NCBI GenBank assembly: GCA_019113305.1
Contig: DXHP01000126.1
Location: 1-38,206, forward strand
DNA length: 38,206 nt
Source of the DNA: Candidatus Ignatzschineria merdigallinarum
GTDB lineage: Bacteria; Pseudomonadota; Gammaproteobacteria; Cardiobacteriales; Wohlfahrtiimonadaceae
Reading direction: 5' to 3'
Shown piece by piece: positions 12,427 to 33,806 of the stretch (positions are counted from its first letter, which is position 1; every line of letters begins with the position of its first letter). Made by a program: the position numbers and the translations under genes. Below the pieces are notes generated by a model. It was not told where the DNA came from. It made no database searches and saw only the letters and a program-made list of their open reading frames with translations.

Positions 12427-12765
12427 TCAGCAGTTGTAATCGCTATTTCAAAAATAAAAGACTATAAAATCCTGCAAGCGTTCGCTCTTGGCGCACATCT
12501 GTTTTAAAAATCACATTATCTCGGCAGTTTAAACCGATCACTATCGCTATTCTGATTTCAAAAGATTGCCAATGATTGCTGGCACGAGATCGCTAAAATG
12601 CTGCAAGTGTTCGCTTCAGCCGCGCATCGGCTTTAAAAAGCACATTATCTCAGCAGTTTAAAACGGATCGCTATTCTGATTTTAAAAGGTTGCTAATAAC
12701 CGCTGGCACGAGATCGCTAAAATTCTGCAAACGTTCGCTCCGGCCGCGCATTAGATTTAAAAGAA
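12427..12765. repeat. Imperfect intergenic tandem repeat, ~124-129 bp period, about 2.5 copies
   Basis: Unit anchors TAAAAT(C/G/T)CTGCAA(G/A)(C/T)GTTCGCT at about 12465, 12594 and 12718; shared internal blocks CACATTATCTC(A/G)GCAGTTTAAA and GCTGGCACGAGATCGCTAAAAT. Confidence 0.85.
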
Positions 12766-12782
12766 ACAATCATCGCTAATGA

Positions 12783-13535
12783 TTAAACATCTCGCACATC
12801 GGCGATGGGATTATTGCCGGACATTAAGGGAGAGTTGAGATAATTGATGATCATCGTTGCCGATTCGTGTGGTGAGAGAAGATTACCGCGCTCTTTTAAA
12901 TCAATAAAACGATCAATATGCGGGAAATCTTGCGCATTGCTTGCACGGATCTCCACTTGCATATCGGTATCAATCACGCCGGGAGCGAGTGATGTCACTC
13001 GAATTGGAAAGGTTTGAGTTTGTTGCTCGGCATGCAAACAGCGAGAGAAATGGTCTATTGCCGCTTTCGTTGTGCAGTAAATTCCCCAACCAGAATAGGC
13101 TTTTCGTGCGGCTCCGGAGGAAATATTAATAATGTTTTTAATGATTGGTAAATCTTGCGTCATTGCGACAAAAGCATTGCTAAGCGTAATCGGCGCCGTC
13201 ACATTGAGTGTGATTGCTTGTTGAACATGTTCTTGCATTAAATTCCCAATTTGGGCAATCGGTCCAATCATGCCGGCATTATTAATAAGGGTGATTTCGT
13301 TGGCGATTCCTAGAAAAGGTTTCGCCCAATTCATGATGGTTTGCGATGCTTGATCTTCGGTGATATCTAACGTCATGAAGTTTGGTAATTGATTGGGATT
13401 ACTACGTGCGATGCGTAATACTTTATGACCTTCGGCTTCTAAAATGGTTGCTAAAGCATGCCCAATTCCTTTTGATGCGCCGGTAATAATAAATAGTTTC
13501 ATGATGATATTCCTCATTGCTAGATAACGTGACAA
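12783..13535 (-). CDS. SDR family NAD(P)-dependent oxidoreductase
   Basis: 250 aa; TGASKGIGHALA, NNAGMIGP, INISSGAARKAYSGWGIYCTTKAAIDHFSR, sepiapterin-reductase-like SDR. Confidence 0.93.
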   Translation of the reverse strand: MSRYLAMRNIIMKLFIITGASKGIGHALATILEAEGHKVLRIARSNPNQLPNFMTLDITEDQASQTIMNWAKPFLGIANEITLINNAGMIGPIAQIGNLMQEHVQQAITLNVTAPITLSNAFVAMTQDLPIIKNIINISSGAARKAYSGWGIYCTTKAAIDHFSRCLHAEQQTQTFPIRVTSLAPGVIDTDMQVEIRASNAQDFPHIDRFIDLKERGNLLSPHESATMIINYLNSPLMSGNNPIADVRDV

Positions 13536-14077
13536 GTTGATGCTGAATATGAAACCATACTTTACTATCGGTAATTTCGATATTGATATGATGACATTGA
13601 TAGATCATTGTAAGAAGTTAATGAGTAATAATGAAGTTGGGGAAGTTGTTAAAGATGATTTGTGTGAGTAGGCATAGAACCCATTGTGTAATCCTCCTCA
13701 ATATTTTGGAAATCTTAATACCGTTTTCAAAGCATTTAGGAGATGCTTTAAATTTGATAAATTCTCTCAAATATTCAATATGATTAATCAATGATCTTGG
13801 TAGGGGATGGGTGATCCATTGCGATGGTACACATATTAGAGCGTATCAGATAAGTTGAAAAAATTAGATCAGAGTAATGTTGCTTAATCTTGTGGTTTGG
13901 TTGGCACTATGCATGTTTAACGGAGTCTAGATTCCATTTACTCACCTGATTATTGACTTAAGTAATTTCTTTTCGAAATCTAAAAAGTTTGATACTGTGT
14001 TTTTTAAATAAAAAATGTTTTAAGCATATATTTTATGTTGTAATTTTAATTTTTTTAATGAGAATAAGTTTTATAAA

Positions 14078-14479
14078 ATGACTAGACTAACTCGCATCTT
14101 TTTAATAATTGCAGGGGGTATTTCTCTTTTTTTGGGAATACTAGGTATTTTTTTACCATTGCTACCAACAACGCCCTTTGTTCTTCTTACAGCTATTTGC
14201 TGGGCTAAAGGCTCTGATAAATTTCACTTGTGGTTGACTAATCATAAACTATTTGGGGCAATGGTAACTGATTGGGAAACACATCGTATTATTCCTCTCA
14301 AAGCAAAATGGCTTTCGACAATTATGATGAATGGAATGATTTTTATTTCAGCTTTTTATATTGTAAATAGCCCTTGGTGGGCAAAATTCTTAATGATTAT
14401 TATGGGAGTAGCTGTCTCAATTTGGGTCTGGTCTTTTCCACATGACACCAATAAAAATGTTGAACAAAAGATTATTTGA
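14078..14479 (+). CDS. YbaN family (DUF454) inner-membrane protein
   Basis: 133 aa; GGISLFLGILGIFLPLLPTTPFVLLTAICWAKGSDKFHLWLTNHKLFG. Confidence 0.92.
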   Translation: MTRLTRIFLIIAGGISLFLGILGIFLPLLPTTPFVLLTAICWAKGSDKFHLWLTNHKLFGAMVTDWETHRIIPLKAKWLSTIMMNGMIFISAFYIVNSPWWAKFLMIIMGVAVSIWVWSFPHDTNKNVEQKII

Positions 14480-14574
14480 AATCTATTTGTTTGCACATGA
14501 TATTGCATCAAAAAATAATATTCGATTGTCATAGTCTCTATTTTTAATTATCAAAACATGGTTTATACTCAGAT

Positions 14575-15118
14575 TTATAGGCTATAAATTATACAAAAAA
14601 GACATAGATCAATAGATTTTTTAAATTCCTTATAGGAAGGTATATAGATATAATTTTTCAAAAAAAGTATTTTTATCAATGCATTGTTGTTTTTTTTAGG
14701 TGTGTACAAATCTATTTTTTGCAAGATATTCCATGCAAGGATAAATAAATGAAAAGTTATGTTGTAATTATAAAATTTGGATGTTAATGTTGACTGAAGT
14801 AAAGAAAAGCAACTGATTGTGGATGACACTAATAAACTAAAATATCCATCAGCTGTTAATTTACTACTAGTAAATTTGATAATTGATTTAATCATACTTA
14901 TTAAAATAATCACAGATAGTCATTATCAGCACTGAAAGCAACCAAAGATATAAGCCTTTCACTGTCTTACTAGTTAAATAAAAAGTTCCTGGGGAGGAGA
15001 GTACATGAGATTTAATATTTTTAACTATGCCGTAAAACACATAAGTGTTTGTGTTAAGGGAATTAAAGATTACCAGACTAACCAATTTTGGTTTGTGAGT
15101 TGGGAAATTTAATACCAT
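14575..15118 (-). pseudogene. Possible degraded membrane-protein gene (two overlapping out-of-frame ORFs, 76 aa + 112 aa)
   Basis: ORFs 14888..15118(-) and 14575..14913(-) abut in different frames and each contributes a hydrophobic segment; together reminiscent of a two-TM SLATT-like layout. Weak. Confidence 0.25.
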
Positions 15119-15379
15119 TTTATAAGTGGCAAAAATTTTAAATTAGGGTCTTAATTCATACTCTAAGCTAGTTAGAATGATTAATAGAAATAATGGTCAT
15201 TAATAATTAATGGCTCTATTCTTCGTTTGGAATAATATTAGCAAAAAATTAATCAATACATATTATCTGCTTATTAATAAAAGGTAAGTTGACGTATTCA
15301 GCAATGTATTTTATTTCATTGTTGTGGTCTTTTGCGTCATAAATATTTTTAATTAGTCTGTCGGAGGGGGAGAGTAAGC

Positions 15380-15619
15380 ATGAATGTTATGAAATCAAAG
15401 AAAAATTTAGTAAAGATATCCCAAAATGAAAGTTTTATTCAGAGTGAAATTGAATCCGATGATCCTTTTGTTCGAGTTCTTTACAAAGATTTGGAAGATA
15501 GGATTCAGATATATGAACAGGAAGGTTCTGGTATAGATCGACTGAAAATTTCAGATTTAAAAACAGAGCTGATTATGGCTTTGATAATCACAGGATTTTT
15601 AATAAGTGTTGTTTTATAA
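15380..15619 (+). CDS. Small protein with C-terminal single TM segment, adjacent to NCS1 permease
   Basis: 79 aa; strong RBS (GGAGGGGGAGAG), C-terminal TELIMALIITGFLISVVL; 46 bp upstream of the permease ORF. Confidence 0.65.
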   Translation: MNVMKSKKNLVKISQNESFIQSEIESDDPFVRVLYKDLEDRIQIYEQEGSGIDRLKISDLKTELIMALIITGFLISVVL

Positions 15620-15665
15620 ATACTGGATTTTAAAATACTGATTTTTTTATTTTTGGGGGTATATC

Positions 15666-17075
15666 TTGAGTAATTCTTCAATTTCAAAAGACGTTGCATT
15701 TGGTTTTCTGCCAGCACAAAAAAAAGATAGAATTTTTGGTCAATGGGATTTAACATTTGTTCTATTGGGAATAGCCGTATCATGTTTTGCTTTACTTACA
15801 GGTGCTTATGCTGGGGTATGGTTGAATGCTAAAGAATCTATAGCTGTGATTCTCTTTGGGAATTCTTTTCCAGTTTTATTAGTAATGCCTATTGCTATTT
15901 ATTTTACACGTTATGGTATTGATACCTTTATTGGCTTTAGAAGTGCATTGGGGTATTTAGGTTCAAATATATTTTATTTTATTTTTATGGCGATAACTAT
16001 TGGTTATATGTCAATAGCACTATTCATGTCGGGTCAGGCACTTGTTAAAATTTCGAGTTTAACTAGCTTGCCAGATTTCTTTACCACGGCATCTACAGGC
16101 GCTCCATTTTTTGCAATAACAATTTTTATCTTCGTATTTGCAGCAACATATAGAGGCCCCTTATTTATAAGTAAGTTTAATAGAGTTGGTGTACCGGCAG
16201 TGCTACTTGTGATGTTAGGTATTATTGCGGTGTTATTTTTTAATGAAGGTGTTGATAAGCTATTTTCTTTATCTCCTTCAGAGCCTTATGATGAATGGTC
16301 TCGCTCATTTATGACTGCATTAGAAGTCAATATAGGGCTTGGTTTCTCATGGTTACCATATATTGGTCAGTATGCTCGTTTAGCGAAAACTGAAAAAGGA
16401 GCATTTAAGGCTGGCTTTCTAAGCTATGGCGTTTTAGTAGTGGTTGTTGCCGGTTTAGCTGCATTATCTGCATTGGTTGTATCTTCACTTGACCCTACAG
16501 ATTGGATGTTTGTGATTGGAGGAAAAATTGGTGGCTTAATTGGATTAATATTATTGACTCTTGGTAATGTTACTGCGGCAATATTTTTAATGTATTCCCA
16601 GGCAATTAGTTTTAAGACTATTTTTCCAAAAAAGACTTGGATTGCAGCATTAGCAACGGCTATTCCAACAATATTTTTACTGCTTAGCTCATCATTTTAC
16701 GATGCATTTGGATCATTTATTACTGTCATTGCCTACATTATGGCTGTGTTTGGGGGAATTGTAATTTCGGATTTCTTTTTTGTAAAGAAACAAGATATTT
16801 CTCTCCGTGATTTATATGACACAAAGGGATCCTATAAGTATTGGAAAGGATTGAATCCATCAGCTGTTATAGCATTTTTTACCGGCACAATAACGTATTG
16901 GAGTTTATATAATCCCATTACGGATACATCTAGTAAACTTTTTGAATATATAGGAGCGGGTATCCCTTCTTATTGTGTCGCATTAATTACCTATTATATT
17001 GTGGCTAAATATGTTTTTTCATACAAAGTAGACCATACGAAAACTAAAGATCTTATCTCTATAGCCTCTAATTAA
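15666..17075 (+). CDS. NCS1-family (cytosine/purine permease-like, CodB-type) transporter
   Basis: 469 aa, about 12 TM; FGQWDLTFVLLGIAVSCFALLTGAYAG, GLGFSWLPYIGQYARLAKTEKGAF, LGNVTAAIFLMYSQAISFK, FGGIVISDFFFVKKQDISLRDLYD typical of NCS1. Confidence 0.85.
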   Translation: MSNSSISKDVAFGFLPAQKKDRIFGQWDLTFVLLGIAVSCFALLTGAYAGVWLNAKESIAVILFGNSFPVLLVMPIAIYFTRYGIDTFIGFRSALGYLGSNIFYFIFMAITIGYMSIALFMSGQALVKISSLTSLPDFFTTASTGAPFFAITIFIFVFAATYRGPLFISKFNRVGVPAVLLVMLGIIAVLFFNEGVDKLFSLSPSEPYDEWSRSFMTALEVNIGLGFSWLPYIGQYARLAKTEKGAFKAGFLSYGVLVVVVAGLAALSALVVSSLDPTDWMFVIGGKIGGLIGLILLTLGNVTAAIFLMYSQAISFKTIFPKKTWIAALATAIPTIFLLLSSSFYDAFGSFITVIAYIMAVFGGIVISDFFFVKKQDISLRDLYDTKGSYKYWKGLNPSAVIAFFTGTITYWSLYNPITDTSSKLFEYIGAGIPSYCVALITYYIVAKYVFSYKVDHTKTKDLISIASN

Positions 17076-17121
17076 TCTTAAGATTTCATCTATATATAAT
17101 TAAATTTTTCATAAAAAATAT

Positions 17122-17178
17122 AAGGAGGATTTCAGTGAAATTTTTTAATTATATTTAATATGCGGATAAAAATATCCG
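17122..17178 (+). promoter_or_regulatory. Candidate leader: strong SD + 7-codon mini-ORF + hairpin upstream of N-demethylase gene
   Basis: AAGGAGG (17122-17128), GTG AAA TTT TTT AAT TAT ATT TAA (17135-17158), then CGGATA-AAAA-TATCCG hairpin (17163-17178). Confidence 0.4.
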
Positions 17179-17236
17179 TAAATAATAATTAGTAAATTAA
17201 ATATACAAAAATATAAATCCCAAAGGAGAAGTTACA

Positions 17237-18202
17237 ATGTTTAAATCAACAAACTTGGATCAATTTACATTTCCATTCAAAGCAAAAACATATCGTTATT
17301 CTAATGACTTAGTAGAATTACCTGAGAAAAAAGTTAATTTTATGAAAATTACCCCAGAATATAAAGTTCAGATTGAACGTAAACGCCAAATTTTAAATGA
17401 AAAACCAGAAGCGCGTTATCAGTCTTTCCCGCATACGATGGAAATGCAATGGGAGTTTCTTGAAATGATCATTGATATGGCCGTGAGTGCATATCCTGAA
17501 CATTTTTCCATTGAAAAAGTAGGGGATCAATGGACATTTGAAAATCGTATTTTAGGTGAAAAAGATGTCTTTATTTTTGGCGATGAAACAAGCCTTCCAT
17601 TTGAACCATTTGACTATATTGGTCGCCATTTTCATAACGATTTTATGTTAATGGTGCATCGAGATAACAACTATCATTTAGAAATTGGTCAGATCTCTTT
17701 TGCCGCATTATTCTCGGCTAACTGGAACGTTGGGATGAGCTTTAACGAAATTCATGCGCCGGTCCCATTTGTGAGTAGAACGGGTGTAGAGCTTGTGGAT
17801 CGAATTCGTAAATTTTTATTAACAATTGAGCCTGGAAAACCGAGAACAAGAGTTAACTGGAACTTAATGGCTGATGCTTGGGATGTTAATTATGAATCAA
17901 TGGATGAGTGGGGGCCTGAGCGCTATAAAGTAACGAAAGAAAATGCGGGTGAATTAGTGCATCTTCGTGTGGAAGAACAGTGGTTTATTAAGATGCCTCG
18001 TAGTAATGCTATTTTATTTGTTTTGGATACTCAATTCTTACCGTTAGAGGATTTAGTGATGAGACCTGCATGGCTAGAACTGACATATAGCAACTTGTCT
18101 GATATTCCTGATGCAATGGCTGAATATAAAGGAATGGCTCCATTTTTAGCGCAATCAGTAGAGTATTTAAAGAATTTAAGAGCCGAGTTAGCAAGTAACT
18201 AA
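17237..18202 (+). CDS. Heme-dependent oxidative N-demethylase alpha-subunit-like protein (DUF3445 / dimethylamine monooxygenase system)
   Basis: 321 aa; RYQSFPHTMEMQWEFLEMIIDMAVSAYPEHF, HNDFMLMVHRDNNYHLEIGQISFAALFSANWNVGMSFNEIHAPVPFV, NWNLMADAWDVNYESMDEWGPE, RVEEQWFIKMPRSNAILFVLDTQFLPLEDL; DUF3445 pattern. Confidence 0.82.
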   Translation: MFKSTNLDQFTFPFKAKTYRYSNDLVELPEKKVNFMKITPEYKVQIERKRQILNEKPEARYQSFPHTMEMQWEFLEMIIDMAVSAYPEHFSIEKVGDQWTFENRILGEKDVFIFGDETSLPFEPFDYIGRHFHNDFMLMVHRDNNYHLEIGQISFAALFSANWNVGMSFNEIHAPVPFVSRTGVELVDRIRKFLLTIEPGKPRTRVNWNLMADAWDVNYESMDEWGPERYKVTKENAGELVHLRVEEQWFIKMPRSNAILFVLDTQFLPLEDLVMRPAWLELTYSNLSDIPDAMAEYKGMAPFLAQSVEYLKNLRAELASN

Positions 18203-18217
18203 AGGGGAGAGAAAGTT

Positions 18218-18730
18218 ATGTCTAATATTATAGTTCACACAAATCCATCACTATATGATAAATCGGTAACCTTAAAAGAAACCTTTACACTCCATCCCCG
18301 TAGAAGTAGATATATCCTGGTTTCTGAATCAGGTTTAGAAAATGAGCTTGCGAATTTTGTAACAGAAATTGAAAGTGGAAATAAGTCTTATACGCTTTAT
18401 ACCGCCAGTGATTTACAAACAATGACTTCTTTTTTTGAAAATCAATTAATTGGTACTCAATTATATATTGTTGCGACATGGGATGTGGCACGCATGATTT
18501 TTGAGGCTGCAGTGAATGCTGGATTTACTGAAGATGAAATTCAAACTAAAGTTATTGGTGATAAAAAACGTTATGTTTATTGCATGAAATGTTTCCAGTT
18601 AAATGATGCAACGACAAAAGACAAGGAAATCCAATGTTCTACATGTGCAGCGATGTTAGCAGTCGGCCCATTTTATTCCAAATTTCGTAAAGGAAACATT
18701 GGTTATCCTTTTAAACCTGTTGTGCAGTAA
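18218..18730 (+). CDS. Dimethylamine-monooxygenase small-subunit-like protein (DmmA-like) with C-terminal zinc-ribbon-like motif
   Basis: 170 aa; C-terminal CMKCFQLNDATTKDKEIQCSTCAAMLAVGPFYSKFRKGNIGYP (CxxC...CxxC); located between DUF3445 protein and reductase as in dmm clusters. Confidence 0.72.
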   Translation: MSNIIVHTNPSLYDKSVTLKETFTLHPRRSRYILVSESGLENELANFVTEIESGNKSYTLYTASDLQTMTSFFENQLIGTQLYIVATWDVARMIFEAAVNAGFTEDEIQTKVIGDKKRYVYCMKCFQLNDATTKDKEIQCSTCAAMLAVGPFYSKFRKGNIGYPFKPVVQ

Positions 18731-18755
18731 ATCATATATTTAATCGGAGGATTAT

Positions 18756-19724
18756 ATGAGAATTTATGGAAATATTGATATGTACGTTGGTAAAATCGTA
18801 CAGTTAACCGAAAGCGTAAAGCGTTTTTATTTATATCCAACAGATAATAAATTATTACCTGCATTTACAGGTGGCGCTCATATCACTACATTTGTTAATT
18901 CAAATGATAGTGTCATTGAAAGAGATTATTCATTAGTTAGTCATCCTACGAATAGATTGCACTATTCTATTTCGATCAATAGAGACACAAACTCTAGAGG
19001 TGGATCTGTTTATTGGCATGATGAAGTAAAAGAGGGGGATAAACTTCAAGTTACTCCTCCTAAAAACCATTTTCCATTAAGTTTTAAAGCAAAACATCAT
19101 GTGTTTTATGCTGCAGGAATTGGTATTACGCCATTTTTAACAATGATTGAAGATCTTGAAGCTCAGGGTAAAACATTTGAATTACACTATGCCGCTCAAA
19201 CACAAGAAAATTGCGCATATTATGATTATTTAAGTAAAAAGTACCCGGGTAAGATCCACTTTTATTTTTCAAGAAATGAAAATCCTAATCGCATGACTCC
19301 TGAATCGATGAGAAACCATCGAATAGGATCACATGTGTATTTCTGTGGTCCAGTATCCATGGTAGGTGAATATCGTGATGCTGCGATCGATTATGGTTAT
19401 CCTATTGACTCTGTTCATTTTGAAGTTTTTGGATTAGCAGAAGGACCTAGAATGCCATTTAGAGTTTCGATTCCAGAGCAAGATAAAGTGATCGAAGTAA
19501 CTGCTGAAGAGACTCTTCTGGAAGCATTGTTAGCAGCTGGAGTCGATGCTCCATATTCATGTAAAGGCGGAGGTTGTGGTCAATGTGAGGTCGTTGTAGT
19601 TTCAGGTGAAGTGGATCATAGAGATATTTTCTATAGTGATCAAGAGCGCGCGGAAAGAAAAGTGATTTTAACTTGTTGTTCTCGTTCGATAGATTCAAAT
19701 GAAGAATTAGTGTTGAGTTTATAA
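18756..19724 (+). CDS. Phthalate-dioxygenase-reductase-type ferredoxin reductase (flavin/NAD + C-terminal plant-type 2Fe-2S)
   Basis: 322 aa; RDYSLVSHP, YAAGIGITPFLTMIEDL, C-terminal CKGGGCGQCEVVV...LTCC 2Fe-2S ligands. Confidence 0.92.
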   Translation: MRIYGNIDMYVGKIVQLTESVKRFYLYPTDNKLLPAFTGGAHITTFVNSNDSVIERDYSLVSHPTNRLHYSISINRDTNSRGGSVYWHDEVKEGDKLQVTPPKNHFPLSFKAKHHVFYAAGIGITPFLTMIEDLEAQGKTFELHYAAQTQENCAYYDYLSKKYPGKIHFYFSRNENPNRMTPESMRNHRIGSHVYFCGPVSMVGEYRDAAIDYGYPIDSVHFEVFGLAEGPRMPFRVSIPEQDKVIEVTAEETLLEALLAAGVDAPYSCKGGGCGQCEVVVVSGEVDHRDIFYSDQERAERKVILTCCSRSIDSNEELVLSL

Positions 19725-19750
19725 TCAATTATTTATTATTAGGAGTCATC

Positions 19751-21232
19751 ATGACAGAAGTACTAGCATTTAAAAATTACATCAATGGTGAATGGGTAGA
19801 TTCTAAAAATACCGATTTAAATCAAGTTTTAAATCCAGCGACTCAGGAAGTTATTGCAACTACTCCAAGAGCAACGCAAGAAGAAGTTGAAAGAGCTATT
19901 GCAATTGCCAAAGAGGTTTTTGAAAGTGGTAAATGGTCAGAATTAACAGTGCATGAGCGTGCTGATTATTTAAATAAAATAGCGGATAAGATAGATGAGA
20001 GAGCTAATGAGCTCATTGATTTAGAAGTTATGAATAATGGTAAGATTCGTGCAGAGGCTGAGTTTGATATTGGTGATTCAGCTGATTGTTTCCGTTATTA
20101 TGCTTCATTAGTTCGTACACAAGTAGGAGAAACATTTAACGCACCGGCCTCTATGCAATCGATGATTGTGCGCGAGCCTGTGGGAGTCGCAGGGTTGATA
20201 GTTCCTTGGAACCTTCCATTAGTGATGGCTGTATGGAAAATTGCACCCGCTTTAGCGGCAGGAAATACACTTGTTATTAAGCCTGCTGAGTTAACGCCTA
20301 TCACATTAGTAAAGTTATTTGAAATTATTGATGAAGTAGAATTACCGAAAGGTGTCGCTAACCTAGTCATGGGTAAAGGTTCTGTTGTCGGTCAGATTCT
20401 TGCAGAAAGTCATGATATTGATATTGTCTCATTTACTGGTAGTACTGATGTAGGTAAACAGATTATGATTGCCGCAGCTGGAAACTTAAAGAAAGTCTCC
20501 TTAGAGCTTGGAGGAAAATCTCCTAACATTATCTTTGCAGATGCTGACTTTGAGACCGCTGTAGATCATGCCTTATTTGGTATTTTCTTTGGTGCAGGAC
20601 AAGTTTGTTCAGCAGGTAGTCGTATATTAGTAGAAGCTAGTATTTATGATAAATTTGTTAATCGTATGGTCGAGCGAGCATCTCAGATTAAAGTAGGACC
20701 AGGTAATGATCCAACTTCTGAAATGGGGGCAATTACGAGTCAAAAGCAATTAGATACAATTTTAAAATATATTGAAATAGGTCAAGCTGAAGGCGCGACT
20801 TTAGCCTTGGGTGGAAAGCGTTTAACAGAAAGGGGGCTCGATAGAGGCTACTTTATTGAACCAACTATATTTACTGATGTTACATCTAGTATGCGTATCG
20901 TAAGGGAAGAAATTTTTGGACCTGTTGTGGTCATTCAAAAATTTGAAAATGAAGAAGAAGCTATTAAGTTAGCTAATGATACGGTGTATGGTTTAGCTGG
21001 GGCAGTTTTTACCAAAGATGGTACAAAGGCTATACGAGTGATTAAAAAAGTTAGGGCGGGAATTACATGGGTTAATACTTATCATCCGACTTTTAATGAA
21101 GCTCCATGGGGTGGGTATAAACAAAGCGGGATTGGTCGTAGTTTAGGTTCATATGGGCTAGATGATTTCCAAGAAGTGAAACAAATTAATATTAATCTTG
21201 ATGTTGAACCCTTAGGGTGGTTTAAAAACTAA
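19751..21232 (+). CDS. Aldehyde dehydrogenase family protein (betaine-aldehyde-dehydrogenase-like)
   Basis: 493 aa; VPWNLPLVMAVWKIAPALAAGNTLVIKPAE, SLELGGKSPNIIF, FGAGQVCSAGSR catalytic Cys, EEIFGPVV, APWGGYKQSGIGRSLG. Confidence 0.95.
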   Translation: MTEVLAFKNYINGEWVDSKNTDLNQVLNPATQEVIATTPRATQEEVERAIAIAKEVFESGKWSELTVHERADYLNKIADKIDERANELIDLEVMNNGKIRAEAEFDIGDSADCFRYYASLVRTQVGETFNAPASMQSMIVREPVGVAGLIVPWNLPLVMAVWKIAPALAAGNTLVIKPAELTPITLVKLFEIIDEVELPKGVANLVMGKGSVVGQILAESHDIDIVSFTGSTDVGKQIMIAAAGNLKKVSLELGGKSPNIIFADADFETAVDHALFGIFFGAGQVCSAGSRILVEASIYDKFVNRMVERASQIKVGPGNDPTSEMGAITSQKQLDTILKYIEIGQAEGATLALGGKRLTERGLDRGYFIEPTIFTDVTSSMRIVREEIFGPVVVIQKFENEEEAIKLANDTVYGLAGAVFTKDGTKAIRVIKKVRAGITWVNTYHPTFNEAPWGGYKQSGIGRSLGSYGLDDFQEVKQININLDVEPLGWFKN

Positions 21233-21251
21233 ATTAATGCTGTGTGATGAT

Positions 21252-21287
21252 ATAAAAGAGAAGCAAAAATCATTGCTTCTCTTTTAT
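21252..21287 (+). terminator. Strong terminator after aldehyde dehydrogenase
   Basis: ATAAAAGAGAAGCAA-AAATCA-TTGCTTCTCTTTTAT, 15-bp perfect stem. Confidence 0.85.
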
Positions 21288-21316
21288 GATGAGAAATATT
21301 TTTTAAGAAAAATTGA

Positions 21317-21772
21317 ATGAGGCTGATGATGACAGGTAATTATCAAAATATTTTAGTAGCAATTGATGGATCTAAAGAAGCCGAATTGGCCTTTAAAAGA
21401 GCACTTGTTATTGCACAAAAAAACAATAGTACTGTTTATTTAGTAAATGTTATAGATCTTCGTTCTTATGTCGGATTAGAGGCATTTGATAAATCATTTC
21501 CAGAACGTGCTCGAGATATGTCAGAAGGGATGTTAGAGGAGTATAAGGAGAGAGCAATTACTAGTGGGATAGATAAGGTTTTTATACTTATTGAGTTTGG
21601 TTCTCCTAAAGAATTAATTCCTGTGGAAATTGCTGAAAAACTTAATATAGATTTGATTATTTCCGGTGCAACGGGACTCAATTCTATTGAAAAGTTTTTT
21701 ATGGGAAGTGTATCTGAAAATATAATGCGTCGAGCAAAATGTGATGTATTAATTGCTAGAGATAAGGAGTAG
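21317..21772 (+). CDS. Universal stress protein, UspA family
   Basis: 151 aa; NILVAIDGSKEAELAFKRAL, GATGLNSIEKFFMGSVSENIMRRAKCDVLIAR. Confidence 0.95.
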   Translation: MRLMMTGNYQNILVAIDGSKEAELAFKRALVIAQKNNSTVYLVNVIDLRSYVGLEAFDKSFPERARDMSEGMLEEYKERAITSGIDKVFILIEFGSPKELIPVEIAEKLNIDLIISGATGLNSIEKFFMGSVSENIMRRAKCDVLIARDKE

Positions 21773-22291
21773 GTGTAGATTTTAGATATTTTTTTAAGAA
21801 AAAATAAACTAGATATTAAGATAGACCTTAAAATTTATTTTTAATAGGGTTTGTTAAATATTTATGATTTCAATCAAACCTATAGGCTACAGCAACATTA
21901 CTAACCTAATTGTTTTTCAACTTATCATATCGTGTTACTAAGTTACTTAAATTATTTGTTAAAATAGAGGTTTATGCATTTTTTCAGATATATATCCTCG
22001 GTCAGCATTCAGTAATTGAGTTTCATTAAGGTCAATTTTCTAGATAAGTATTCAGTGTGATTTTTATATCCATGACAACCACGATCAGATGAGGCTTTGA
22101 AGTTTTGAAATTATAATTATTGATTAAGATATTGATTATCTTAGGGGGTTTATCAAGTTTAGATCATCTTCTAAATGCATTAAAGAGGTTATGGTATAAA
22201 GAAAAGATGATATAAAAAGCACTCAAAAATGCCTGAAATTTTCATGTATAATAATGCTTCATAAAATTTCTAACTTACAATAACTCAATAG

Positions 22292-23430: not shown

Positions 23431-24297
23431 ATGATCATGCATAAGACTGAAGCGGCAAGGCGCCGCACATTTAAAAAGCTGCTATTTGCCGGCGCATTAT
23501 TCATCAGTGGATTACTGCTTTCAGGTTGTTTTAATGACACTGAGAAAGCCGACTCTACAGATGCGAAAAGAGAGATCGTATTTGGTACAACCGTAGGTGA
23601 TTTTAGTACTATGGTTCGCGATAAGGTTGGACCGATGTTAGAGCGCCAAGGATATCGTGTGAAGCTGATTGAGTTTACAGATTATGTGCGTCCTAATCTG
23701 GCTTTAGCGGAAGGTTCTTTAGATATTAATATCTTTCAGCATCTCCCTTATTTAGAAGGTTTTAAAGCGCAGCATAATTTAGATATTGAAGCGGCGTTTC
23801 AGATTCCAACAGCGCCTTATGGTTTATATGGCGGTAAAGTGAAAACGCTTGATGGCGCATATTCTGGCATGACGATTTCCGCACCGAATGATCCTTCTAA
23901 TTATGCGCGCGTATTAGTGATCTTAGATTATCTAGGGTGGATTAAGTTGAAGGATAATGTTGATCCTTTAACCGCATCTCGTCATGATATTGCAGAAAAT
24001 CCGATGAATATCGAGATTATTACTTTAGAAGCACCGCAATTACCAAGATCTTTGGAAGATGTGGATTTCTCTGCAATTAATGGCAACTTTGCGATTAGCG
24101 CGGGTTTGAATCCTAAGGATGCAGTGTTCAAAGAGCCTAATTTCACATTTGTTAATTGGTCAGCAGTCAGAAGCGAAGATCGCGATAGCGAGTGGCTTAA
24201 AGATGTGACAGATGCGTTTAATTCAGAGGAATTTAAGCAATTTAGTGCAGAAAGATTTGAAGGTTATCAGTTACCAGAAGTTTGGGAAGCTCAATAG
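23431..24297 (+). CDS. metQ: MetQ/NlpA family lipoprotein (methionine ABC transporter substrate-binding)
   Basis: 288 aa; lipobox LLSGC, IVFGTTVGDFSTMVRDKVGPMLERQGYRVKLIEFTDYVRPNLALAEGSLDINIFQHLPYLEGF, APNDPSNYARVLVIL. Confidence 0.9.
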   Translation: MIMHKTEAARRRTFKKLLFAGALFISGLLLSGCFNDTEKADSTDAKREIVFGTTVGDFSTMVRDKVGPMLERQGYRVKLIEFTDYVRPNLALAEGSLDINIFQHLPYLEGFKAQHNLDIEAAFQIPTAPYGLYGGKVKTLDGAYSGMTISAPNDPSNYARVLVILDYLGWIKLKDNVDPLTASRHDIAENPMNIEIITLEAPQLPRSLEDVDFSAINGNFAISAGLNPKDAVFKEPNFTFVNWSAVRSEDRDSEWLKDVTDAFNSEEFKQFSAERFEGYQLPEVWEAQ

Positions 24298-24410
24298 ATA
24301 GAGAAATAATGAATAACAAATAGCGTAGCAAATAAATTTGAAATAATAGAATCACAAAAAATCATGATTTGTGATGTTCAGAAGCGATAAATTAGGAAGG
24401 AAATAAGTTT

Positions 24411-25256
24411 ATGAAAGGTGTTTTTAAAAAATTGGCGTTCGTCTCTTTACTTGGGGCCACAGCTGTCTTAGCAGCTTGCAACTCTGATGAAAAATCAGCG
24501 GATCAAACTACCAGTGCTGATGTGAAGAAAATTCGTATTGGCACAACTGTTGGCGATTTTGCGGATATGGTGACAGATTCAGTGAAACCGCAATTAGAGA
24601 AGAAAGGTTATGATGTTGAGCTGGTGGTATTTACCGATTATGTACTTCCAAATAGAGCGCTTGCAGATGGTTCTTTAGAGATTAATACCTTCCAACATCT
24701 GCCATATTTGAATTCTTTTAAAACGCTAAATGAGCTTGAGTTGACAGAAGTTTTCCAAATTCCAACAGGCCCATTAGGTATTTATAGTGGTCAAAAAGAT
24801 GATTTAAGTGTGATCGCAAAAGGTGCGAAATTTGCAGTGCCGAATGATCCAAGTAACTTTTCACGTTCTTTAGCATTATTAGTCGATGCCGGTATTATTA
24901 CGTTAAAACCGGGCACAGATTCGCTTAAAGCCACGAAAAATGATATTGCTGAGAATCCCCATAACATCGAGTTAGTCATGATCGAAGCACCGCAATTACC
25001 GCGTGTACGACCAGATGTGGATTATGTTGTGATTCCAGGAAATTATGCCGCAAGTTCCAATATCCCATTTTCTGATGCACTCTTTGCAGATCCTGGATTT
25101 GTCTTTATTAACTGGGCAGCTGTTAAAACAGCCGATATTGATGCGCCGTGGTTAAAAGATGTGACAGAAGCTTATAATTCTGAAGAATTTAAAGCATATG
25201 CGGCAGAACGTTTTGCGGGATATAAATACCCACAATCATGGGAAGAAACGAAGTAA
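24411..25256 (+). CDS. metQ: MetQ/NlpA family lipoprotein, paralog of upstream gene
   Basis: 281 aa; lipobox VLAAC, VELVVFTDYVLPNRALADGSLEINTFQHLPYLNSF, VPNDPSNFSRSLALL. Confidence 0.9.
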   Translation: MKGVFKKLAFVSLLGATAVLAACNSDEKSADQTTSADVKKIRIGTTVGDFADMVTDSVKPQLEKKGYDVELVVFTDYVLPNRALADGSLEINTFQHLPYLNSFKTLNELELTEVFQIPTGPLGIYSGQKDDLSVIAKGAKFAVPNDPSNFSRSLALLVDAGIITLKPGTDSLKATKNDIAENPHNIELVMIEAPQLPRVRPDVDYVVIPGNYAASSNIPFSDALFADPGFVFINWAAVKTADIDAPWLKDVTEAYNSEEFKAYAAERFAGYKYPQSWEETK

Positions 25257-30252: not shown

Positions 30253-32408
<2,156 letters not shown>

Positions 32409-32494: not shown

Positions 32495-32651
32495 ATGGCG
32501 CATTTTTTGTAGAGATTTTTATGATGCAGTTAATCATGAATGCCGGCATTGTATTGTAGGGCGAGAGCGATACTTTTTATAATTCTTGAAATAATGTCAG
32601 TTACCGCCGTAAATTGATATTGTGAAGAGATCATCAACCAAGGAGAACGCC

Positions 32652-33806
32652 ATGCACATCTTAATTGCGCCAGATTCATTTAAAGATAGCCTTACGGCAG
32701 AAGCAGTTGCCAATGCTATTGAAGCGGGGTTTCTTGAGGCGGGTTTTTTTGAGAGATTTCCCAAAGGGATTATTACAAAGCTGCCTGTCGCAGATGGTGG
32801 CGAGGGAACAATGCCGGCAATGATTGCCGCGATGCAAGGGGAGATCTTGCCTGTTGTGGTGCATGATCCTTTAATGCGTAAAATCACAGCGAATTATGGC
32901 TGGGTGAAATCCAAGCGACTCGCGATTATTGAGATGGCAGAAAGTAGTGGTTTAATGCGTCTTTCTACGGCTGAACGAAATCCACTGGTAACCTCGAGTT
33001 TTGGGACGGGGGAGCTTATTCTTGATGCGTTAAATCAAGGTGCCACATCGATTATTCTAGCCATCGGGGGAAGCGCGACAAATGACGGAGGCGCCGGAAT
33101 GCTTCGTGCTTTAGGCGCGCAACTTTTAGATGCAAAAGGGGAACCATTGCCGGAATGAGGCGTCGCTTTAAGGCATCTCGCTAAGATAGATCTCTCCCAA
33201 TGGGATGCAAGGCTTGCCCATGTACAGTTTGATATCGCCTGTGATGTTGATAATCCCTTAACCGGAAATGCCGGTGCTTCGGCAATTTTTGGGCCGCAAA
33301 AAGGCGCTTCAAACGAGGATGTCCAGCAATTAGATCAGGCACTATCCCATTACGCAGATATTACCGCAAGCACGTTAGGAATTGATGTGCGAGATAATGC
33401 CGGAAGCGGCGCCGCGGGTGGGATGGGGTTTGCCGGCAATGCCTTTTTACAAGGCCGATTAAAGTCCGGCATTGAAATTGTCTTAGATGCCGTCGGCTTT
33501 GCTCAAAAGGTCCAGCAGGCAGATTTAGTGATTACCGGAGAGGGGAAGATCGATGCTCAAAGCATCTACGGGAAAACGCCTGTGGGCGTAGCGCAACTGG
33601 CGAAAAAATATGATAAACCTGTCATCGCGATTGCCGGCAATATCGGGGAAGGCGCTTCATTGGTGCATGAGAAAGGGATTGATGCGCTCTTCTCAATTAC
33701 GCAAAGACCCGAAGCGCTGGAAGTTTCGCTCTTATCGGCGCGAGAAAATATTATTGCGACCAGTCGTAATATCGCGCGTTTATGGTGTTTACAGACAGGC
33801 GTTTAA
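32652..33806 (+). pseudogene. Glycerate kinase (GarK/GlxK family) interrupted by one in-frame TGA at 33156-33158
   Basis: ORF 32622..33158 (MHILIAPDSFKDSLTAEAVANAIEAGF...ALGAQLLDAKGEPLPE*) continues in the same frame as GVALRHLAKIDLSQWDARLAHVQFDIACDVDNPLTGNAGASAIFGPQKGAS... into ORF 33387..33806. Confidence 0.88.

Follow-up and report, generated by a model that had tools for sequence, protein, structure and literature searches.

What is the substrate of an N-demethylase-like enzyme whose genes lie between those of a permease and an aldehyde dehydrogenase (ALDH)? This question is raised by contig DXHP01000126.1 of Candidatus Ignatzschineria merdigallinarum (hereafter the host), in which six genes on the forward strand (15380-21232) encode a small membrane protein, an NCS1-family permease, the three components of a heme-dependent oxidative N-demethylase (HODM), and an ALDH. 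The window analyzed here is positions 1 to 38,206 of this contig, a stretch of 38,206 nucleotides. The cassette is an operon of Bacillales that the host acquired by horizontal transfer, and it is not the dimethylamine system. We propose, with a probability of roughly 50%, that it is a catabolic operon for a cyclic secondary amine, most likely piperidine and possibly also pyrrolidine.

Components of the cassette

The six open reading frames (ORFs) are separated by intergenic gaps of 46, 161, 15, 25 and 26 nt, and each is preceded by a purine-rich ribosome-binding site, in agreement with the sequence-only reading of this locus. The first (15380-15619) encodes a 79-residue protein with a single transmembrane (TM) segment. 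It is a presumed permease partner; homologues are located directly 5′ of NCS1 genes in Bacillales, and similar short TM ORFs precede related permeases elsewhere. The permease (15666-17075) matches PF02133 with 96.8 bits (cut-off 23.5; 1.7e-27), and its best solved relative is the Mhp1 hydantoin transporter (9e-10). It reaches none of the NCS1 subfamily models, with 100 of the 353 bits for the curated nucleobase transporter model TIGR00800. The last gene (19751-21232) encodes a betaine/aminoaldehyde-type ALDH (PF00171, 3.5e-180) and is followed by a 36-nt palindrome (21252-21287), previously described as a strong terminator. The palindrome is real, folds at approximately -19 kcal/mol on either strand, and is likely a bidirectional terminator, but it is G+C-poor and is not among the calls of a consensus terminator scan.

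The three central genes encode an HODM-type enzyme, as had been predicted, with a PF11927 alpha subunit, a DmmA-like subunit encoded next to it, and a reductase all present. The alpha subunit (17237-18202) matches PF11927 with 175.6 bits (cut-off 25; 1.8e-51) and has the PAS-type fold. The nearest solved structure is that of Pseudomonas mendocina HODM (5LTE; phmmer 5e-62). An AlphaFold model of moderate confidence (mean pLDDT 66.5) matched 5LTH (E 1.1e-22, TM-score 0.75) and 5LTE (E ~1e-22) in a Foldseek search, which returned no other good match. The protein is 33-38% identical to dimethylamine-type alpha subunits. In the alignment of both HODM clades, H173/H194 and E246/E266 are invariant, and the invariant residues are common to 5LTE; heme binding and amine oxidation are predicted. 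Thirty-six positions differ in a clade-specific manner between the window-type and dimethylamine-type subunits, several of them adjoining H194 and E266 of 5LTE in the sequence alignment.

The DmmA-like small subunit (18218-18730) carries the two CxxC motifs CMKC and CSTC. It scores 27.0 bits for PF22289 (4e-6), just below the cut-off of 27.4, and 51 bits for NF041259 (1e-13), below 60. The flavin/NAD/2Fe-2S reductase (18756-19724) is of the phthalate dioxygenase reductase type (2PIA, 2.8e-50) and matches PF00111, PF22290 and PF00175. It has a Fer2 domain (3.4e-17), an NAD-binding domain, and the motifs RDYSL, GIGITP and CKGGGCGQC, and its DmmA-like_N score of 34.8 bits is over the cut-off of 33.

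The best subfamily for the ALDH is betaine aldehyde dehydrogenase, with 599.4 bits, which is below the TIGR01804 equivalog cut-off of 668.6. Its resemblance is to aminoaldehyde and betaine aldehyde enzymes rather than to formaldehyde dehydrogenases. Aminoaldehyde dehydrogenase is the likeliest predicted function because the protein is 65% identical to a host ALDH whose gene adjoins that of a putrescine aminotransferase (745 bits, cut-off 612); the expected substrate of this host ALDH is 4-aminobutanal.

A conserved operon in Bacillales

Close relatives of the alpha subunit were sought in 84,980 species genomes. Twenty-nine loci were found, all of them in Bacillales, with alpha identities of 61-80%. 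The DmmA-like and reductase genes are located 3′ of the alpha gene in every locus, the ALDH gene is kept in 28 and the NCS1 gene in 21. The small TM protein was detected by BLAST in 17 loci, and a short TM ORF lies 5′ of NCS1 in every NCS1 locus inspected. Because it recurs in these 29 other loci, the six-gene arrangement is far beyond chance, and the suspected linkage of permease and ALDH to the N-demethylase is borne out by the conserved gene order. Locus L019 has no ALDH gene between the reductase and an APC permease (12562-12866), and L011 shows apparent frameshifts in the NCS1, reductase and ALDH genes.

A sigma-54 activator gene with a PrdR-like AAA domain accompanies 28 of the loci and is usually divergent. 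Scanning both strands for perfect matches to TGGCAY-N5-TTGC gave 47 motifs across the 29 loci. Thirty-seven of them are within 350 bp upstream of a gene start (small protein, NCS1, HemA or HODM), where approximately one would be expected, and each locus has one. HemA, the glutamyl-tRNA reductase (479 bits, cut-off 209), is encoded inside eight of the operons (L002, L004, L006, L007, L008, L009, L010 and L026), which looks like a built-in supply of heme precursor and fits the heme demand of HODM. A gltX copy is located 3′ of the ALDH gene in L018 and L029. Downstream in the Peribacillus loci L012-L015 (~14455-20300), a second sigma-54 activator is encoded together with an iron-type alcohol dehydrogenase, another ALDH and a permease; a similar dehydrogenase-permease pair is found on contig C88 of the host genome, near GabT-GabD.

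Neighboring genes and the downstream pathway

The genes around the Bacillales operons provide clues to the substrate. In Kurthia sibirica, a gap of 33 nt separates the ALDH gene from the GabT gene (729 bits, cut-off 676) downstream, which is followed by that of a GabD-type (succinate-semialdehyde-type) dehydrogenase. Ureibacillus and Lysinibacillus have GabR-GabT-GabD downstream, after a GltX gene, and the Neobacillus-type loci have the Gab genes upstream. Altogether, GabT-GabD are present in 8 of the 29 loci, in three arrangements. Three Neobacillus-type loci encode GlaH (433 bits, cut-off 333), accompanied in two of them by LhgO (600 bits, cut-off 299) and DUF3870, and two others encode proteins whose best hits are a succinate-glutarate CoA-transferase and an acyl-CoA dehydrogenase. 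In Escherichia coli, GabT and GabD use 5-aminovalerate, and CsiD and LhgO complete the route (PMC6265302). By this precedent, glutarate genes beside GabT-GabD point to 5-aminovalerate. The host genome itself encodes two GabT proteins, GabD, GlaH (425 bits, cut-off 333) and LhgO (505 bits, cut-off 299), and is predicted to be able to finish the route from 5-aminovalerate or gamma-aminobutyrate (GABA).

Distinction from the dimethylamine system

For comparison, we analyzed ten other three-component HODM loci of the DmmDABC type, some located in gammaproteobacterial genomes and others on plasmids of Acinetobacter and Rhizobium. None of the ten contains an ALDH or NCS1 relative, and nine contain DmmD, Tdm or GlnT. 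None of the 29 Bacillales loci contains DmmD, GlnT (GmaS), PurU, Tdm or FolD. In the tree, the dimethylamine-type HODM group (support 93/77) is separate from the Bacillales clade that holds the window alpha subunit. Ruegeria needs DmmD to grow on trimethylamine and on trimethylamine oxide (PMC5520151).

In the host genome, which is 94% complete, GmaS was not found (there is a single glutamine synthetase), nor were Tdm and DmmD, the sole GCV_T match being one of 25 bits in a YgfZ-like-looking protein of 237 residues. The host trimethylamine monooxygenase (Tmm) is genuine (706 bits, cut-off 675). All nine genomes of the genus have Tmm, eight of them without HODM, and we therefore rejected host Tmm as support for a methylamine role. 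The sequence-only reading would have been contradicted by tmm/tdm genes in the genome together with a strict dimethylamine monooxygenase; this holds only in part, Tmm being present as a genus-wide trait but Tdm, DmmD and GmaS being absent. Because of the single glutamine synthetase, the 25-bit GCV_T match and the genus-wide Tmm, the host has no visible route making or finishing dimethylamine. The earlier suggestion that dimethylamine is not the substrate and that the ALDH consumes the released aldehyde is supported by the Bacillales neighborhoods and by the absence of DmmD, GmaS and Tdm. The Tmm gene is located at G000:C113 (L081:5843-7237); Tdm and GmaS are both lacking in the single genome checked for them, and trimethylamine N-oxide would be an end product.

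Transport

The nearest plasmid relatives of the NCS1 permease outside Bacillus are approximately 25-29% identical and adjoin agmatinase-like ureohydrolases in the three records examined, one of which is the metformin plasmid pMET-2 (PMC9800807). A short TM ORF precedes NCS1 in two of these three records. This NCS1 subgroup may carry cationic amines and guanidines. Short single-TM proteins are encoded before NCS1 in Bacillales and also in Gemmobacter and Thioclava (L116:8778-8948; L117:8756-8917), which suggests that permeases of the subgroup have a small partner protein not described before.

Proposed route and alternative explanations

In the proposed route, the NCS1 permease and its small membrane partner would import the cyclic amine. 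Electrons from NAD(P)H would travel through the reductase and the DmmA-like subunit to the heme of the alpha subunit, a PAS-fold protein, which would hydroxylate the carbon next to the nitrogen (alpha-hydroxylation). The same alpha-hydroxylation on dimethylamine releases formaldehyde. The hemiaminal of a cyclic amine would open to 5-aminopentanal (from piperidine) or 4-aminobutanal (from pyrrolidine), which the ALDH would oxidize to 5-aminovalerate or GABA. Piperidine would thus be converted to 5-aminovalerate in two steps, by a secondary-amine monooxygenase and then an aminoaldehyde-type dehydrogenase. Host GabT/GabD would lead on to glutarate (or succinate), and GlaH and LhgO would convert glutarate to 2-oxoglutarate. 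More tentatively, and with somewhat less weight than we give to the cassette itself, the whole Bacillales HODM clade, which is also present in a gammaproteobacterium by transfer, may open cyclic secondary amines. It would then represent a non-P450 heme-PAS monooxygenase that comes with a dedicated transporter pair and aminoaldehyde dehydrogenase, a gene for heme supply, and regulation by sigma-54.

Several points weigh against this proposal. The reaction chemistry is predicted from the genes. The ALDH scores below every curated subfamily cut-off examined. The NCS1 permease is replaceable, because the eight Bacillales loci without it carry an APC permease downstream instead; furthermore, piperidine and other small amines are able to cross membranes in their free-base form, and a permease is not strictly expected. 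The window has neither the regulator nor the sigma-54 promoters. Finally, the assignment of a C5 substrate rests on few independent events, because GabT-GabD are linked in no more than 8 of the 29 loci and the glutarate genes are confined to one Neobacillus lineage.

The same downstream genes would be needed if the enzyme N-dealkylated an open-chain secondary amine (for instance of the N-alkylated putrescine, cadaverine or N-methyl-GABA type), leaving as the larger fragment an omega-amino acid or omega-aminoaldehyde for the ALDH and GabT/GabD to process. The reaction known for HODM is on a secondary amine with an open chain, and open-chain cationic amines are a plausible cargo because related NCS1 permeases adjoin ureohydrolases of guanidino compounds. 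However, an N-methyl substrate would release formaldehyde, yet the folate-linked one-carbon genes tested (DmmD, PurU and FolD) occur in none of the 29 loci, and no second amine oxidase or diamine aminotransferase is linked. We consider this explanation unlikely. A dimethylamine monooxygenase like DmmABC, with the ALDH removing formaldehyde, is less probable still. It would account for the same three components, the alpha identity of 33-38% with invariant residues in common with 5LTE, and the presence of Tmm in the host. It conflicts with the lack of DmmD, GmaS, PurU and Tdm in the Bacillales loci and of GmaS, Tdm and DmmD in the host, with the separate clade and its 36 specific positions, with the kinship of the ALDH to aminoaldehyde and betaine aldehyde enzymes rather than formaldehyde dehydrogenases, and with the independence of the genus-wide Tmm from HODM.

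The sequence-only reading had noted that NCS1 permeases take nucleobase-, hydantoin- or vitamin-type substrates. The NCS1 family name and the distant match to the Mhp1 hydantoin transporter would fit an N-alkylated nucleobase, hydantoin or vitamin, in which case the nearby GABA and glutarate genes would be coincidental. The neighborhoods argue against an N-methylated nucleobase or vitamin and point to a cyclic secondary amine giving an omega-aminoaldehyde: GabT-GabD recur in three different arrangements, no nucleobase or hydantoin hydrolase is recognized among the conserved neighbors, and the nearest sampled plasmid NCS1 relatives adjoin agmatinase-like genes. Together with the TIGR00800 score far below its cut-off, these observations make such a substrate very improbable.

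If the cyclic-amine proposal is correct, the HODM family, known for dimethylamine, extends to the ring opening of cyclic amines, and a candidate route that leads all the way from uptake into central metabolism exists in common soil Bacillales. Cyclic amines arise when cadaverine and putrescine decay and are also released as industrial pollutants. Growth tests and gene deletions in Bacillales strains available in culture would be an inexpensive check of the prediction, which also cautions against labeling every trio of DUF3445, DmmA-like and reductase genes a dimethylamine monooxygenase.

Horizontal acquisition

The cassette is located in an acquired island (13510-22210) that is absent from sister genomes. 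In five sister genomes examined by blastn, the flanking genes, a short-chain dehydrogenase/reductase gene (12783-13509) and an SH3 gene (from 22211), are neighbors. The G+C content at third codon positions (GC3) is 0.21-0.30 inside the island, compared with 0.34-0.40 for most flanking genes. None of the eight remaining genomes of the host genus contains PF11927, nor do the other members of the family that were sampled. The host assembly has no 16S rRNA gene; the pattern of kinship suggests Ignatzschineria. The alpha subunit of the window is nested in the tree among Bacillaceae sequences (99/99) within the Bacillales clade (100/98), and the donors were apparently Bacillus relatives.

A comparison with composite transposons revealed decayed, inverted insertion sequence (IS) remnants on both sides of the cassette and its two passenger genes and no intact transposase. 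The left remnant (13691-13940, forward strand) is an IS4/5-family element with an internal deletion, 75% and 74% identical to parts of a sister-genome IS. The right one (21838-22192, reverse strand) shows stretches of 74-90% identity to the same IS. The matching IS is multicopy in the sister genome and encodes a 251-residue DDE transposase. Small repeats within the window were mostly due to chance, and only these IS remnants from the sister-genome comparison held up. No sigma-54 site was found in the island, even when one mismatch was allowed; the sigma-54 regulator and promoters were not carried over, or were lost. The island also carries two passenger genes on the forward strand, encoding a DUF454 membrane protein (14078-14479; PF04304, 2.6e-38) and a universal stress protein (21317-21772; PF00582, 3.8e-33).

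Other features of the window

Beyond the island, the window contains two tandem, similar MetQ-type lipoprotein genes (23431-25256) and a 472-residue ORF with a HisF-like start (30990-32408), whose length suggests a HisF-HisIE fusion. A glycerate-kinase-like gene (32622-33806) is seemingly split into ORFs of 178 and 139 residues, a possible pseudogene or sequencing error.

Comparison with known systems

Mycobacteria degrade piperidine, pyrrolidine and morpholine through cytochrome P450 routes. These systems resemble the reaction proposed here, in which alpha-hydroxylation would turn a cyclic secondary amine into an aminoaldehyde, but the heme protein of the window has the HODM/PAS fold and is not a P450. 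Pseudomonas sp. KU43P reportedly has a non-P450 piperidine route that involves a cytosine/purine-type permease gene, and part of the cyclic-amine prediction may already be known through that report. We searched the literature for KU43P and for gene clusters acting on piperidine or pyrrolidine and found nothing relevant, the KU43P report being outside the literature covered.

The closest characterized enzyme is DmmABC of Pseudomonas mendocina (5LTE) and Ruegeria pomeroyi (PMC5520151), which likewise consists of a heme PAS-fold alpha subunit, a DmmA-like subunit, and a flavin and 2Fe-2S reductase. The invariant residues are common to both, and the predicted fold of the window alpha subunit matches 5LTH/5LTE. 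In contrast, the window cassette belongs to a separate clade and lacks the gene for the folate-binding DmmD and a methylamine pathway. It is linked instead to the NCS1 permease and an aminoaldehyde-type ALDH and, in its relatives, to HemA and GABA/glutarate genes. The steps from 5-aminovalerate to 2-oxoglutarate are those of the E. coli CsiD(GlaH)-LhgO-GabD-GabT glutarate pathway (PMC6265302), whose genes are found in the host and near the Neobacillus operons. The difference lies in the origin of 5-aminopentanal, which E. coli forms from cadaverine by PatA and which would here arise from ring oxidation.

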